From: Acidobacteriota bacterium
GTDB taxonomy: Bacteria > Acidobacteriota > Thermoanaerobaculia > UBA5066
DNA length: 64,000 nucleotides
Reading direction: 5' to 3'
Assembly (NCBI GenBank): GCA_029781975.1
Contig: JAKOVQ010000010.1
Location: forward strand, 298,375-362,374
The translations under genes and the position numbers were made by a program. Position 1 is the stretch's first letter, and every line of letters begins with the position of its first letter. This document shows positions 10,717 through 17,058 of this stretch, one piece after another. Under the pieces are notes generated by a model that was not told the origin of the DNA, did not search any database, and saw nothing but the letters and a program-made list of their open reading frames with translations.

Positions 10717-11691
10717 GTGATCTCCGTCCACCTCTTCCGCGAGGGAGGCGGCCTCGAGCACCGGCACGACCTCGGCCTCGCCGAGGCGTGGCGGGGGCGC
10801 AACGGCTCGCCGCTCTGGATCGACGTGGAGGACCCCGGCGAGGAGGAGGCCCGCGACCTGGCGGACGTCTGCGGCTTCCACCCCCTCACCGTGGAGGACT
10901 GCCTCACCCCGGCCCAGCCGCCCAAGGTCGAGGAGTTCGGCGACTACCTCTTCCTCGTCTTCCGGGGCCTCCGTCCGGAGGAAGGGGGCGACGAGTGCGC
11001 CGTGGAGAGCTACAAGCTGGCCGCCTACCTGGGGGCCGGCACGCTCGTCACGGTCCACAAGAGGCCCGTCGAGGCGGTGAACGAGGTGTCGGACCAGGTG
11101 ACGCGCAAGGACCTCCCGCTCGAGCGCCACATGGACCAGATCCTCCACGCCATCGTCGACCGGATGGTCGACCGGCTCCTCCCGGTGGTCGACCGGTTCG
11201 AGGAGCGGATCGAGGAGATCGAGGAGCAGGTCTTCCGCGACCCGAAGCCCGAGGTCCTCCAGGAGGTCCTGGCGCACAAGCGGGCGATCCTCTCCATCCG
11301 GCGGCTCGCCGTCCCGCAGCGGGAGATGCTCGGGCGGCTCGCGCGGCGCGACCTCCCCTTCATCGACGAACGGACCTCGCACTACTTCCGCGACGTCTAC
11401 GACCACATGGCCCGGATCGAGGAGACCACCGTCATCCTGACGGACCTGGCGACCGGGACGATGGAGGCCTACCTCTCGATCGCCTCGAACCGGCTGAACG
11501 AGATCGTCAAGGTCCTCACGATCTTCTCGGTCATCTGGATGCCCCTCACGTTCATCGTCGGCGTCTACGGGATGAACCTCAAGGGGATGCCCGAGATGGA
11601 GTGGCGCTGGTTCTACCCGGTGCTCCTCGCGGGGATGGCCGCCATCGCCGGCGGCATGCTCCTCTGGTTCAAGCGGAAGCGCTGGATCTAG
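10717..11691 (+). CDS. corA: CorA-type Mg2+/divalent cation transporter
   Basis: A 324-residue transporter of the CorA family. The long N-terminal cytoplasmic part ends in two C-terminal membrane helices; the first carries the selectivity signature YGMN at its outer end. A basic tail (KRKR) follows the last helix, as usual. CorA forms a pentameric channel for Mg2+, sometimes Co2+ or Ni2+, or Zn2+ in ZntB relatives. The GTG start lies 7 nt after a TAGACT -10-like box and lacks a Shine-Dalgarno. Its last 23 nt overlap, tail to tail, with the end of the large AAA+ protease gene on the other strand. Confidence 0.94.
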   Translation: MISVHLFREGGGLEHRHDLGLAEAWRGRNGSPLWIDVEDPGEEEARDLADVCGFHPLTVEDCLTPAQPPKVEEFGDYLFLVFRGLRPEEGGDECAVESYKLAAYLGAGTLVTVHKRPVEAVNEVSDQVTRKDLPLERHMDQILHAIVDRMVDRLLPVVDRFEERIEEIEEQVFRDPKPEVLQEVLAHKRAILSIRRLAVPQREMLGRLARRDLPFIDERTSHYFRDVYDHMARIEETTVILTDLATGTMEAYLSIASNRLNEIVKVLTIFSVIWMPLTFIVGVYGMNLKGMPEMEWRWFYPVLLAGMAAIAGGMLLWFKRKRWI

Positions 11692-14600
11692 CCTTCGCCG
11701 CCGCCGGCGCGGTGGCCGTGGCGGCGACGGCGGTCGCCGCCGCCGTCGCGAACTCGGCCAGGTCCTCCCGGTCCAGCGACTCGCGCTCGAGGAGGAGCTC
11801 CGCCAGCCGGTCGAGATGGGCGCGTCGCTGGGTCAGGACCGACGCCGCGCGCCGCTCGGCCGCGCTGATCCACGCCTCCAGCCGCTCCTTCACCAGGGCC
11901 GAGAAGCCGTTCCGCTCGGACTCGGGGAGCGAGCCGAGGGCGATGGGGCCGACGACGTCGTCGAACCCCCACCGCGTGATCGCGTTCCACGCCAGGCCCG
12001 TCGCCGACTCGAGGTCGCTCGAGGCCCCCGACGTCAGCTGCCGCTTCTCGCCGCCCCCCAGGATCCGCTCGGCCTCGCGCCCGGCGAGGGCCACCGCCAT
12101 CCGCCCCTCCACCTCGTCGCGAAGGAGGTCGTGCCGGTTCTCCTCGGCCTCCGTGGCCAGGAAGCCGAGCGCGCCGCGCTCGTTGGCGACGATGGTCAGG
12201 TGGTCGACCCGCCGCCCCGGGAAGAGGGTCATGTGGACCATCGCGTGGCCCGCCTCGTGGTACGCGGTCCGCCGCCGCTCCTCCGGCGCCACCTCGAACT
12301 CCTCCTGGTCCGCGCCGAAGCGGACGAGCCGCCGCGCCTGCTCGAGGTCGGCCGCCGTCACGCCGCTCCGGTGCGCCGCGGCCGCCGCGTAGGCCGCCTC
12401 GCGGACGATCCGGTCGAGGTCGGCCGGGGTGCACCCCGAGGTCCCCGTGACGAGCCGGTCGAGGTCGGCCCCCGCCTCGGTGAGGGGGACCTTTCCGAGC
12501 CGCATCTCGAAGAACTGCCGCCGCGCCTGCGCGTTCGGGAGGTCGCACGGGAGGATCTCGTCGAACCGGCCGGGGCGCATCAGCGCCGCGTCGAGCTCGT
12601 CGGGGACGTTCGTCGCGGCGAGGACGAAGACCGGCCGCGCCGGCGAGACGAATCCGTCGAGGCAGGAGAGGAGCTGGTTGAGGATCGAGTAGGTGTGCTG
12701 CATCTCGACCCCGCTCCTCACGCGGGCGATGCCGTCGATCTCGTCGAGGAAGACGATCGACGGGGCGTACTCGCGCGCGCGGTCGAAGAGCTCGCGGATC
12801 CGCGCCTCGGACTCGCCGACCCACTTCGACTGGAGCTCGCCCGCCGAGAGCGCCAGGAACGGCAATCCCGCCTCCCCCGCCAGGGCGCGGGCCAGGAGCG
12901 TCTTCCCGGTCCCCGGCGGCCCCGCCAGGAGGAAGCCGCGCGGCGGCTGGATGCCGAAGGCGCCGAGCTGGGTCGGGTCCTTCAGCCACTCGAGGACCTG
13001 CTGGAGCCGCCGCCGCGCCCGGTTGAGGCCGACGACGTCGGAGAAGCGCTCGCGCGGGATCCCGGTGAAGCGGATCGGGGAGGCCTGGTCGGTCGCGCGG
13101 AAGACCACCTCGCTCACCGGCGCCGTCAGCTCGACGGCGACGGTCGACGCGGCCGCGTCCCAGCGGAAGGTCGTCTCCCACCGCGTCGTCCGGTGGGCGC
13201 GCCGCTCCTCGCGCGTCACCTTCTCGTACCGGACCTCCTCGAGGAGCTGCCTCACGCGCGCCGCCTGGTCCATCAGCTCCATCGGGTGCTCGTCGCGCCG
13301 CCGCACCGGGAGGAAGCCGCGGGCGCCGCCGCTCCGGAGGACCCGCTCCACCACGCGGTCGAACGCCTGCCGGTCCTGCGGGTCCTCGCTGAAGAGGTAG
13401 ACGGGGAGGCCCGGGTCCGACCGGCGGAGCGCCGCCAGGATCTTCAGGGCCCGCCCCACCTCGGCCGAGCCGACCTCCTCGCCGATCGAGAGGTCGAGGA
13501 AGGCGACGTCGGGCGGGACGACGCGGAGCTCCTCGAGGAGGTGCGCCTCGTCCCGCACGCGCCGGAGCTCGTGGGACATCTCCTTCAGCCCCTTCTCGAT
13601 GACCGGGACGAGCGTGTCGTCGTCGTCGACGAGGAGGATGCGGCAGGGGTGGGCCGAGAGCCGCTGCTCGAGGAACTCCCGCGCCGAGGGCTCGCAGGAG
13701 ACGCGGAGGGCGTACGACTCGGGGGCGGCCTCGCTCAGCGGCTCGCGCAGCTCCTCGAAGGAGCGCTTGATGAGCGAGACGGCCCACTGGGCGCTCCGCG
13801 CGACGACCGTGCGGGCGTCGATGCCGGGGACGAGCGAGAGGAGGAAGAGGAGCTTGCCGGGGTCGTCGACCGAGATGGTCGGCAGCGGGATCCCCGACGC
13901 CTGCCGGCCGGTCACGACCTGCGAGGCGACCGTCTGGTCGACGAGCTCCATGTAGTGGCGGGTCTCGAGGGCGCCGAAGACGACGGCCCCCCCCTTCGCG
14001 AGGCGGGAGACGAACTCCAGCGGGAGCGCCGGCTGCGTCCCCTCCTGCCCCACCTCCCGCGCGCGCCGCGCCGAGGAGAGGATCTCGAAGACGATCGTCG
14101 ACGGGTGCCCCGCGCTCTCGAGGATGCCCGTCTGGTTGCTCGAGCCGAAGAACTCCCGCCCGAGGTTGGTGGTGAAGATGCACCACGTCTCGCGGAAGGA
14201 GACCATCGCCTCGAGCTTCTTGTCCTCGGCCTCGCCGCTGTCGAGCATCGAAAGGAGCGCGACGATCGTGTTGTCGTGCCCTTTCTCGATCTCGTCGAAG
14301 AGGAGGACCGACCTCGGGTTCTCCTTCACGAAGCCGGTCAGCGTCCCGGGGGTGGCGTGCGCGTAGAAGGAGGCGGCGCCGAAGAGCTGCTCGTGGGCCT
14401 GGTGGCCCGAGAAGGAGCCCATGTCGAACCGGCGGAAGGCCCAGGGCCCCTCCTCCACCTCGCGGAGCTCCTGGGCGAAGGTCTCGGCCAGGAGCGTCTT
14501 GCCGACCCCCGGGGGGCCGAGGAAGGTGAAGATCCCGCGCGGGCCGGCCCCCGCGGCGCCGATGCAGGCGCGGAAGTAGGCGTCGCCCAGCATGGCGATG

Positions 14601-15091
14601 GCGGGCTCCTGCCCGAGGACGCGGCGGGCCAGCCTCTCCTGCAGGCGCTTCGTCCGCTTCAGGACCTCGTCGAGCCGCGACACGATCGGCCCGCCGCCGC
14701 CCGCCGGGACGAGCATCCGCGTCACCAGCTCGCTTCCCTGCTTCCTGAGGTTCTGGGCGAGCGTCACCGCCGAGAGGGCCCGGTCCTCGAGGAACGAGCG
14801 CTCGATCACGGCCCTCAGCTCGTTGTCGAACGGGAACTTCTCCTCGGTCGGGGCGACCCCCTCGGCCGACCGGTAGAGCCTCCGGACCTCCTCCGGCCAG
14901 GCGATCTCGCCGGAAGGCGCCTTCAGCGCCTCGCGGACCTCGGGAGGGGCGCTCCCGTCGCGGTCGATCGCGAAGAGCCCGCAGAGGATGTCGGCCACGC
15001 CGAGGCGGCTCCGCCGCTCGGCCAGCGCGGCCCTCTTGGCCCAGGAGAGGACGACGCGGGTGATCTCGTCGAGGTCGGAGGGGGAAGCCAT
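11669..15091 (-). CDS. ClpB-like AAA+ / receiver / FtsH-like M41 metalloprotease fusion
   Basis: A 1140-residue protein with an uncommon order. Residues 1-145 are helical, reminiscent of a Clp N-domain. Residues 150-440 are a ClpB/ClpA D2-like AAA+ module: Walker A GPPGVGKT (192-199), DMGSFSGH, Walker B LLFDEIEKG (263-271), FTTNLG. Residues 482-610 resemble a response-regulator receiver: DDDD acidic pocket near 489-492 and putative phospho-acceptor Asp533; the usual Lys of the last strand is absent. Residues 673-920 are a second AAA+: GPPGTGKT (724-731), pore loop KWVG (756-759), FLDEID (781-786), Arg pair 839/842. Residues 935-1115 are an M41 peptidase with HEAGH (His945, Glu946, His949) and Asp1026. 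Unlike FtsH it has no membrane helices. It begins 1 nt after the YbjN-like gene. Confidence 0.9.
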   Translation of the reverse strand: MASPSDLDEITRVVLSWAKRAALAERRSRLGVADILCGLFAIDRDGSAPPEVREALKAPSGEIAWPEEVRRLYRSAEGVAPTEEKFPFDNELRAVIERSFLEDRALSAVTLAQNLRKQGSELVTRMLVPAGGGGPIVSRLDEVLKRTKRLQERLARRVLGQEPAIAMLGDAYFRACIGAAGAGPRGIFTFLGPPGVGKTLLAETFAQELREVEEGPWAFRRFDMGSFSGHQAHEQLFGAASFYAHATPGTLTGFVKENPRSVLLFDEIEKGHDNTIVALLSMLDSGEAEDKKLEAMVSFRETWCIFTTNLGREFFGSSNQTGILESAGHPSTIVFEILSSARRAREVGQEGTQPALPLEFVSRLAKGGAVVFGALETRHYMELVDQTVASQVVTGRQASGIPLPTISVDDPGKLLFLLSLVPGIDARTVVARSAQWAVSLIKRSFEELREPLSEAAPESYALRVSCEPSAREFLEQRLSAHPCRILLVDDDDTLVPVIEKGLKEMSHELRRVRDEAHLLEELRVVPPDVAFLDLSIGEEVGSAEVGRALKILAALRRSDPGLPVYLFSEDPQDRQAFDRVVERVLRSGGARGFLPVRRRDEHPMELMDQAARVRQLLEEVRYEKVTREERRAHRTTRWETTFRWDAAASTVAVELTAPVSEVVFRATDQASPIRFTGIPRERFSDVVGLNRARRRLQQVLEWLKDPTQLGAFGIQPPRGFLLAGPPGTGKTLLARALAGEAGLPFLALSAGELQSKWVGESEARIRELFDRAREYAPSIVFLDEIDGIARVRSGVEMQHTYSILNQLLSCLDGFVSPARPVFVLAATNVPDELDAALMRPGRFDEILPCDLPNAQARRQFFEMRLGKVPLTEAGADLDRLVTGTSGCTPADLDRIVREAAYAAAAAHRSGVTAADLEQARRLVRFGADQEEFEVAPEERRRTAYHEAGHAMVHMTLFPGRRVDHLTIVANERGALGFLATEAEENRHDLLRDEVEGRMAVALAGREAERILGGGEKRQLTSGASSDLESATGLAWNAITRWGFDDVVGPIALGSLPESERNGFSALVKERLEAWISAAERRAASVLTQRRAHLDRLAELLLERESLDREDLAEFATAAATAVAATATAPAAAKARSSASA

Positions 15092-15092
15092 G

Positions 15093-15731
15093 TCAGAGCG
15101 CCTCCGGGGGAGCCGGCAGCGGCTGCGGGACAGCCTCGCCCTTGCGGCGCAGCTCCTCCACCATCTTTCGCAGCATCAGAAGGTCGGGGTCGTCGGGCTT
15201 CTTCCCGTCGGCGAGGAGCGCGGCGATGAGGAGCTCGGCGAGGAAGGCCGGCGGGGAGGCGGGGATCCCCCGCTGGTCCCCGCGCGGGAGGTCGACCTTC
15301 CCCTCGTCGAGGGCCTTTCGGAGCGGGACGTAGAAGGTCTCGAGCAGCGCGCAGAGGCTCCGGATGCACCGCTCCAGCTGGAGGCGCGTCACCTTCCCGT
15401 CCTCCAGCGGGAACTCGATCATCGGGCGGACCTCGCCGTCCTCGTCGTCGTACTCGAACTGGATCAGCTTCGTCTCCCACTCGACGATCGCGCAGGCGCG
15501 GAGGAAGGTGTCGACGTACGCCCCGCGCGCGACGAACGCGCTGGGGGCGAAGAGGCGGAGGTACTGCCCTTCCTCCTCGAGCTCGAGGATCAGGAGGAGG
15601 TACGGCTCGCCGTCCGGGTGGCGGTAGCTCTGGGTCCGGAAGACGAGGGCGAGCTGCGCGGGACCGCGGACCTCGAACTTCAGGTCCATCTCGGTCAGCA
15701 GCTGCTCGAGCTCCTCCCGCGTCATCGCCAT
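15093..15731 (-). CDS. YbjN/CesT-like putative peptide-binding chaperone
   Basis: A 212-residue protein. Residues about 1-150 show alternating helix and strand blocks (FEVRGPAQLALVF, PYLLLILELEEE, LIQFEYDDEDGEV, MIEFPLEDGKV, then a helix with a Cys) that resemble the YbjN and type III secretion chaperone-like fold. The last 60 residues form an acidic-basic helical tail after a Pro-rich hinge. A GGGAGG Shine-Dalgarno precedes the ATG. The stop is 1 nt before the start of the two-AAA+ protease gene, so the proteins are made together; a role as substrate adaptor or inhibitor of that protease is the obvious hypothesis. The fold assignment is by pattern only and needs a profile search. Confidence 0.65.
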   Translation of the reverse strand: MAMTREELEQLLTEMDLKFEVRGPAQLALVFRTQSYRHPDGEPYLLLILELEEEGQYLRLFAPSAFVARGAYVDTFLRACAIVEWETKLIQFEYDDEDGEVRPMIEFPLEDGKVTRLQLERCIRSLCALLETFYVPLRKALDEGKVDLPRGDQRGIPASPPAFLAELLIAALLADGKKPDDPDLLMLRKMVEELRRKGEAVPQPLPAPPEAL

Positions 15732-15857: not shown

Positions 15858-15863
15858 TAGACT
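15858..15863 (+). promoter_or_regulatory. TAGACT -10-like element
   Basis: TAGACT is followed by 6 nt and a GTG at 15870. It shares TAGACTCCG with the corA promoter. Before the 55-bp duplication that follows, this would have been a leaderless promoter placed exactly at the start codon of the membrane gene. Confidence 0.45.
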
Positions 15864-15866
15864 CCG

Positions 15867-15934
15867 ACCGTGGCCGCCCAGCGCCCAGCGCCCAGCGCCC
15901 AGCGCCCAGCGGCCGTGGTCCACCGTGGCCGCCC
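15867..15934 (+). repeat. 55-bp duplication with 5 x 7-bp tandem repeat at a start codon
   Basis: The 13-bp string ACCGTGGCCGCCC occurs at 15867-15879 and again at 15922-15934, 55 bp apart; both copies contain a GTG start codon. Between them, CCCAGCG is repeated exactly five times (15877-15911). The first GTG (15870) is out of frame with the membrane gene by one base; losing one 7-bp unit or gaining two would put it in frame. The second GTG (15925) is in frame. Confidence 0.85.
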
Positions 15935-17058
15935 TTGCAACCGCCGGGCTGCTGATGGCGATTCAGCTCGTCTCCCTCTTTCACGCGCATCGCGGCTCGC
16001 CGGAAGGGATGGCCAGGGTGGCCGATTCGACCGACCCGAGGAACCTCGACGGCTTCGACGGCCAGTACTTCCTCGCCCTCGCGAAGGACCCCCTCCTCCT
16101 TCACGGCGCCGAGTCGGCGCTCGATTCGCCCGGGATTCGGGCGCGCCGGATCGGGCTACCGGCCCTGGCCTGGCTGCTGGCGCCGCTCGTCGGCGGAGCA
16201 GGCCCCGCTCTCCTCGTCGCCGAGGCGCTGGCCGCCTGCTGCCTCGTCGCGGTGGCTGCGGCTGGCTTGCGGGTCGCAGGGGAGTCGCCGGCCTGGTGCG
16301 CCGCGATCGGACTCCTCCTCCCGTTCGTCCTCTCCATCGAGCTCGTCACCGCCGAGCTCCTGGCCGCAGCCCTCGTTCTCGCAGCCGCCCATGCGGCCGA
16401 GTCCGGGCGCCGGCCAGCCTTCGTCCTTCTCCTCGGATCCGCCTGCCTCGCGAAGGAGGCGGCCGTTCTCGCCGCCATCGCCTTTGGCCTGGCAGCACTC
16501 CTGCGGCGCCGCGTGACCGAGGCCGCGCTCGCGTTCTCCAGCGTCCTGCCCCTGGCTGCGTGGCAGGCATACCTCTCGTTCCGCCTCCCTGCCGTCCGAT
16601 CGGATGCAGGCGTCGTCGGCCTCCTCGAGAACCTGGGGATCCCAGGAAAAGGACTCCTGCAGGGCCTCCTCACGCCGCTGGACGGTCTTCTCTCCGGGCA
16701 GGCTCAACTCCGACAGGTCGGGATCCTCGCCGCCGTCTCGTGGATGGCCGCCGGGGCGGCGCTCGCCGTCGTGCTCCTGGCCACCGGGCGAACCGCTGGA
16801 CGCCTGCTGGGCGGGGCAGGCGCCTTCCTGGCCCTGACTCTCTCGTACGGTGGGGCTGCCCACGCATACGACGGCGTGTTCAATTTCGGCAGGCAGCTCT
16901 TCCTCCTGCCCTGCGGACTCCTCGTCGTCTTCTTCCACGAGGGGAAGGCGGTCACCGGCGCCCAGCGCACCCTGCTTCGCGCCTGGCTGGCGTTCGGAGG
17001 GTTCCTCGGCCTTTCCTGGTGGGTCGTCAAGGCGCTCGTCTCTCCGCCCGCCGCGTAG
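15925..17058 (+). CDS. Polytopic membrane protein, glycosyltransferase-like
   Basis: A 377-residue protein with about eight hydrophobic helices. After the first helix the loop carries FDGQYF (residues 44-49) followed by a basic RARRIGLPALAW segment. A DGQ-Y-F loop followed by an Arg-rich stretch is typical of lipid-carrier-dependent membrane glycosyltransferases (GT-C-like), so a role in transferring sugars outside the membrane is plausible. No catalytic Asp pair can be assigned with confidence. The start is the in-frame GTG at 15925 inside the second copy of a 13-bp repeat; the ancestral start was probably the copy at 15870. The gene diverges from the YbjN-like/AAA+ protease pair and converges with the acyl-CoA dehydrogenase gene. 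Confidence 0.7.
   Translation: MAALATAGLLMAIQLVSLFHAHRGSPEGMARVADSTDPRNLDGFDGQYFLALAKDPLLLHGAESALDSPGIRARRIGLPALAWLLAPLVGGAGPALLVAEALAACCLVAVAAAGLRVAGESPAWCAAIGLLLPFVLSIELVTAELLAAALVLAAAHAAESGRRPAFVLLLGSACLAKEAAVLAAIAFGLAALLRRRVTEAALAFSSVLPLAAWQAYLSFRLPAVRSDAGVVGLLENLGIPGKGLLQGLLTPLDGLLSGQAQLRQVGILAAVSWMAAGAALAVVLLATGRTAGRLLGGAGAFLALTLSYGGAAHAYDGVFNFGRQLFLLPCGLLVVFFHEGKAVTGAQRTLLRAWLAFGGFLGLSWWVVKALVSPPAA

Follow-up and report, generated by a model that had tools for sequence, protein, structure and literature searches.

The window, as we call the whole stretch of 64,000 nucleotides that was analysed, contains on its plus strand (15925-17058) an open reading frame for a 377-amino-acid polytopic membrane protein, which according to its translation and a search against NCBIfam is GT-C-like and similar to the AZOBR_p60025 family (NF046093). 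GTG 15925 is the first in-frame ATG, GTG or TTG of this frame, with none in frame further upstream. Another GTG, the probable 5'-terminal start codon of a leaderless transcript, lies on the same strand at 15870-15872. It is preceded by TAGACT (15858-15863), the -10-like element of a putative leaderless promoter and the only TANNNT on the plus strand between 15732 and 15960, and CCGACC fills the 6 nt between the two. A perfect heptamer array of the plus strand (15875-15911; period 7, 37 bp, 5.3 copies) follows, with five exact CCCAGCG units at 15877-15911. The 13-mer ACCGTGGCCGCCC occurs at 15867-15879 and again, 55 bp further on, at 15922-15934, where it surrounds the in-frame GTG 15925. At 15953-15957, TGATG joins a TGA stop (15953) to an overlapping in-frame ATG of the membrane gene.

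An earlier note on this DNA had pointed to TAGACT 6 nt before the first GTG and to five exact CCCAGCG units between two copies of a repeat, and each of these elements was found in its place. The note had also described a 55-bp duplication at the start codon. The start-codon repeat is indeed present twice, but only 13 bp are duplicated and 55 bp is the offset of the copies; this wording was therefore dropped.

Divergent from the membrane gene, a gene on the minus strand (15093-15731) encodes a 212-amino-acid protein of unknown family. It adjoins a gene (11669-15091, minus strand) for a protein of 1140 amino acids, in which a ClpB/ClpA-like AAA_2 domain, a response-regulator receiver-like domain and an FtsH-type AAA plus M41 protease are fused. 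Matches that cover most or almost the whole of the fused protease, with 37-39% identity, were found in three relatives from the same class (G033, G024 and G133), and the 212-amino-acid gene also stands beside this protease in G033 and G024 (L098, L099). No match to the fused protease was found in any other family member, and the divergent gene was absent from the other family members examined for synteny. The shared adjacency in G033 and G024 suggests a conserved two-gene module.

The heptamer array is not due to chance. When 311 kb of this genome were shuffled under a trinucleotide model, no perfect period-7 run of 37 bp appeared, and CCCAGCG was not found as an array elsewhere in the 5.37-Mb genome, even when two mismatches per three units were allowed. 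The ACCGTGGCCGCCC pair taken alone is unremarkable for this genome. At 72% GC, pairs of 13-mers spaced 20-100 bp apart occur 5.6 times per 64 kb, mostly codon-phased, and by our own count about 0.8 per 64 kb remain once codon-phased pairs and pairs inside an array are set aside. The coincidence of the pair with both borders of the array was estimated, post hoc, at roughly 1e-3 to 1e-4. Because the 13-mer exactly flanks the array, a common origin of pair and array through local duplication and slippage is possible, 13 bp being the length of the evidence.

Perfect non-triplet arrays were also surveyed in a 1.04-Mb sample of the same genome. A second heptamer array, CGCGGGC in 3.6 copies, directly follows a stop codon (L183:13362-13386); an inverted GC-rich copy, possibly a terminator, comes after it. 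A perfect 8-bp array, GCTCAGCG in 4.9 copies, is located just after the stop of a protein-kinase-like gene (L023:2569-2607). Two arrays have 11-bp units in three copies, one repeating a stop region (L188:17010) and the other upstream of an ATG led by a Shine-Dalgarno (SD) sequence (L025:8747). Since these other arrays are found mostly after stops, short arrays arise neutrally and with no link to start codons; neutral slippage is common in this genome. In one relative from the class (G030; L201-L211), a pattern for CCGTGGT-type heptamer arrays matched more than 500 times, with many of the arrays intergenic and reminiscent of the heptamer repeat families in cyanobacteria and Beggiatoaceae.

To place the two GTG codons, we analysed start signals across the genome. 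Genes were predicted in a 1.04-Mb sample (593 genes) by length and by GC bias at the third codon position, and TANNNT was counted at every distance upstream of in-frame start codons. At 6 nt before the start, 29 occurrences were counted, whereas the 40 background offsets averaged 3.95 and none exceeded 9; the first 643 kb sampled gave 15 and 2.4. The distance profile peaks sharply at 6 nt and has a shoulder that begins at 7 nt, and the signal is found in about one in ten genes with a single possible start (16 of 154). TANNNT at 6 nt is thus a genome-wide start signal, and the organism uses leaderless-type starts. A comparable case, TAGACT ccggcgc GTG, is present at position 10717 of the window. 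As the peak lies at exactly 6 nt, GTG 15870 looks like a real 5' end and is a predicted leaderless one, from which we infer the start of the transcript. Upstream of GTG 15925, neither a Shine-Dalgarno sequence nor TANNNT was found. This is not abnormal, since by a crude test both are missing in 85 of the 154 single-start genes; the missing SD was accordingly judged weak as evidence against this start.

Translation of the region with different numbers of units confirmed that the first GTG is out of frame with the membrane gene in the assembled sequence. With five units, the frame from GTG 15870 is the wrong one and remains open as far as 17222, downstream of the gene's own stop. GTG 15870 is in frame with the membrane gene at 4 or 7 units (n = 1 mod 3) and out of frame at 2, 3, 5, 6 or 8; at 3, 6 or 9 units, its frame stops at TGA 15953. 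The claim that gain or loss of units changes the frame between the first GTG and the gene is therefore arithmetically right: losing one unit, or gaining two, brings GTG 15870 into frame with the gene. Read in this way with 4 or 7 units, translation from GTG 15870 into the gene gives VAAQRPAPSAQRPWSTVAALATAGLLMAIQ..., and the in-frame product carries an N-terminal tail, MAAQRPAPSAQRPWST..., before its first membrane helix. The tail encoded by reading through the array is AAQRPAPSAQRPWSTV....

The membrane protein matches NF046093 with an E-value of 9.4e-32 and 110 bits, below the 150-bit cut-off of this NCBIfam profile, which describes the AZOBR_p60025 family of cell surface glycopolymer formation. 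Searched against Pfam, it gave no match, and its structure was poorly predicted from the single sequence (mean pLDDT 47). By family resemblance, the gene probably has a role in cell-surface glycan assembly. It was absent from the 13 other family members examined, and no orthologue was found in GTDB r220 with peptide patterns. Homologues elsewhere in the class are only 24-40% identical over the alignment, and the nearest one found (L082) is 42% identical over its match. The 377-residue product matches the profile from position 60 onward, three scanned homologues already from position 4 or 5; a protein started at GTG 15925 therefore has an unusual N-terminal part. Ten aligned homologues have basic residues near the N-terminus, ahead of helix 1. 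The product from GTG 15925 (MAALATAGLL) begins inside helix 1, with no tail and no basic residues ahead of it; the four-unit product has a 14-residue tail with two arginines before helix 1. Because the homologues share a basic pre-helix tail with the four-unit product and not with the product of GTG 15925, the comparison favours GTG 15870 as the natural start of the gene. As the starts of the homologues were picked by us from their sequences, it is supporting rather than decisive. Near the starts of these ten homologues, no array was found.

Read on the minus (template) strand, the array consists of GGGCGCT repeats, in which five G3 tracts separated by 4-nt loops form a G-quadruplex motif, one more tract than the four such a motif needs at least. 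The GGGNATC heptamers of Xanthomonas and Nostoc form quadruplexes in vitro (PMC4692102), and by inference the quadruplex predicted in the GGGCGCT repeat could favour slippage. GGGN4 spacing was not enriched in the genome over other spacings. We had considered a genomic family of GGGN4 arrays and rejected it, the CCCAGCG array being unique and the GGGN4 periodicity unenriched.

Taken together, we tentatively propose, giving it slightly less than an even chance, that this gene is a candidate for phase variation by slipped-strand mispairing, of the 5'-coding heptanucleotide kind known from neuO of E. coli K1, and that it was assembled here out of frame. Transcription would begin at or beside GTG 15870, 6 nt past the -10 element TAGACT, and ribosomes would load on this 5'-terminal GTG by leaderless initiation. 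Since the CCCAGCG array directly follows the start codon, the number of its units would decide in which frame translation arrives at the membrane gene; with units gained or lost through slipped-strand mispairing, the gene would be phase-variable, and the assembly would have captured an out-of-frame form (five units, n = 2 mod 3). As in other 5'-coding repeat switches, a perfect tandem repeat with a unit length not divisible by 3 lies at the 5' end of the gene, and certain unit numbers connect the start codon to the gene while others do not. Further support comes from the array being perfect and unique in the genome, from TAGACT at the peak spacing and from the arginine-containing tail of the in-frame product. 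The gene is also close to a surface-glycopolymer family, and this functional class commonly carries such switches. Against this reading, the unit number comes from a single assembly and the family offers no orthologous locus in which to compare unit numbers; the homologues have no arrays near their starts, and the other arrays of the genome follow stops or precede an SD-led ATG. The earlier note had seen here the layout of a slipped-strand phase switch. The layout does match known 5'-coding heptanucleotide switches, but similar short arrays also occur in neutral intergenic places.

A serious rival, although we consider it rather unlikely, is a fixed insertion, in which a local duplication and the growth of the array moved the promoter 55 bp away from the gene. 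Translation of the gene would now start at GTG 15925 of a leadered mRNA, at a reduced level and with no reversible switching. Its ancestor would have been a leaderless gene starting TAGACT-CCGACC-GTGGCCGCC-CTTGCA, as obtained with one 13-mer and the intervening DNA ignored. The 13-mer on both sides of the array gives both GTGs the same context, the collapsed repeat would leave a leaderless start in frame with the gene and 6 nt from the -10 element, as is usual, and GTG 15925 is the first in-frame start. However, the shared sequence is only 13 bp long, the MAALATAGLL product has no N-terminal tail, unlike the ten aligned homologues, and a 5'-terminal GTG would compete with GTG 15925. The earlier note had also offered a recent local duplication that detached a leaderless promoter from its gene; its promoter part agrees with the genome-wide TANNNT signal, and for its duplication part the 13 bp are the evidence.

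We regard it as improbable that the array is a neutral intergenic microsatellite, or that its unit count in the assembly is off by one and living cells simply read the gene in frame from GTG 15870. Short neutral arrays with units of 7, 8 and 11 bp do occur elsewhere in the genome, mostly after stops, some class relatives have very many heptamer arrays, and a one-unit error would be enough. A miscount is nevertheless not expected, because an array of 37 bp with unique flanks fits well within ordinary read lengths. Least probable of all, in our estimation, is that TAGACT is a chance match, GTG 15925 the sole start and the array part of an upstream region that is untranslated or not even transcribed and leaves the frame unaffected: more than half of the single-start genes do show neither signal, but for any one offset upstream of a candidate start, TANNNT is expected by chance in only about 0.12% of cases (3.95/3332).

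The phase-variable reading can be taken one step further, to a proposal that we hold to be doubtful: a phase switch acting on a leaderless mRNA, in which slippage in a quadruplex-prone heptamer would move a surface-glycan gene among three states. The gene would be in frame, or in the wrong frame to the end, or stopped early at TGATG with a possible re-start. As the 5'-terminal GTG alone would set the reading frame, slippage would directly change the state. In a limited literature search, no paper describing a switch that combines a leaderless mRNA with a quadruplex-prone heptamer was found. If the unit number varies, the locus would be a contingency locus in a lineage for which we found none reported, and slippage switching would be tied to leaderless translation, in which no ribosome-binding site could restore the right frame. 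Automatic gene calling at sites of this type, here with GTG 15925 as the start, would then yield the wrong N-terminus. If the unit number is constant, what lies beside the gene start is an ordinary intergenic microsatellite.

The locus shares features with several known systems. The TAACTGA direct repeats of Beggiatoaceae are likewise heptamers just upstream of start codons (PMC4679880), but there 169 sets of one unit are present in a single genome, whereas here there is one array. Like the GGGNATC repeats of Xanthomonas and Nostoc (PMC4692102), the array has a GGGN4 unit opposite the gene strand, close upstream of the body of the ORF; those repeats, however, are many-array families with no preference for surface genes, in contrast to this single array in a genome where GGGN4 is unenriched. 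In hmw1A and hmw2A of Haemophilus influenzae, a heptanucleotide tract also lies beside the gene start (PMC2651432), but these tracts are in the promoter and tune transcription, while here the tract would follow the start codon and set the frame. The start itself resembles the TANNNT leaderless genes of Actinobacteria, Deinococcus-Thermus and others, in whose -10 element the first T precedes the start codon by 12 bp (PMC3160421, PMC12340547). The published signal lies about 12 bp upstream of the start (PMC3160421), and the spacing here is equal; the difference is that GTG 15870 and the conserved gene do not share a frame. The closest parallel is neuO, the O-acetyltransferase gene of phage CUS-3 in E. 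coli K1, which is switched by 3 to 53 units of the heptanucleotide AAGACTC; in 65.6% of complete genomes with neuO, the unit count is not divisible by three (PMC13001214). Both loci have perfect 7-bp units just inside the 5' end of a (here predicted) surface-glycan gene, with the frame given by unit number modulo 3. In neuO this variation is demonstrated, whereas here five units, short for a fast switch when judged against that range, are seen in one assembly, and the protein is unrelated. The leaderless-type start would be a new detail relative to a switch of the neuO kind.
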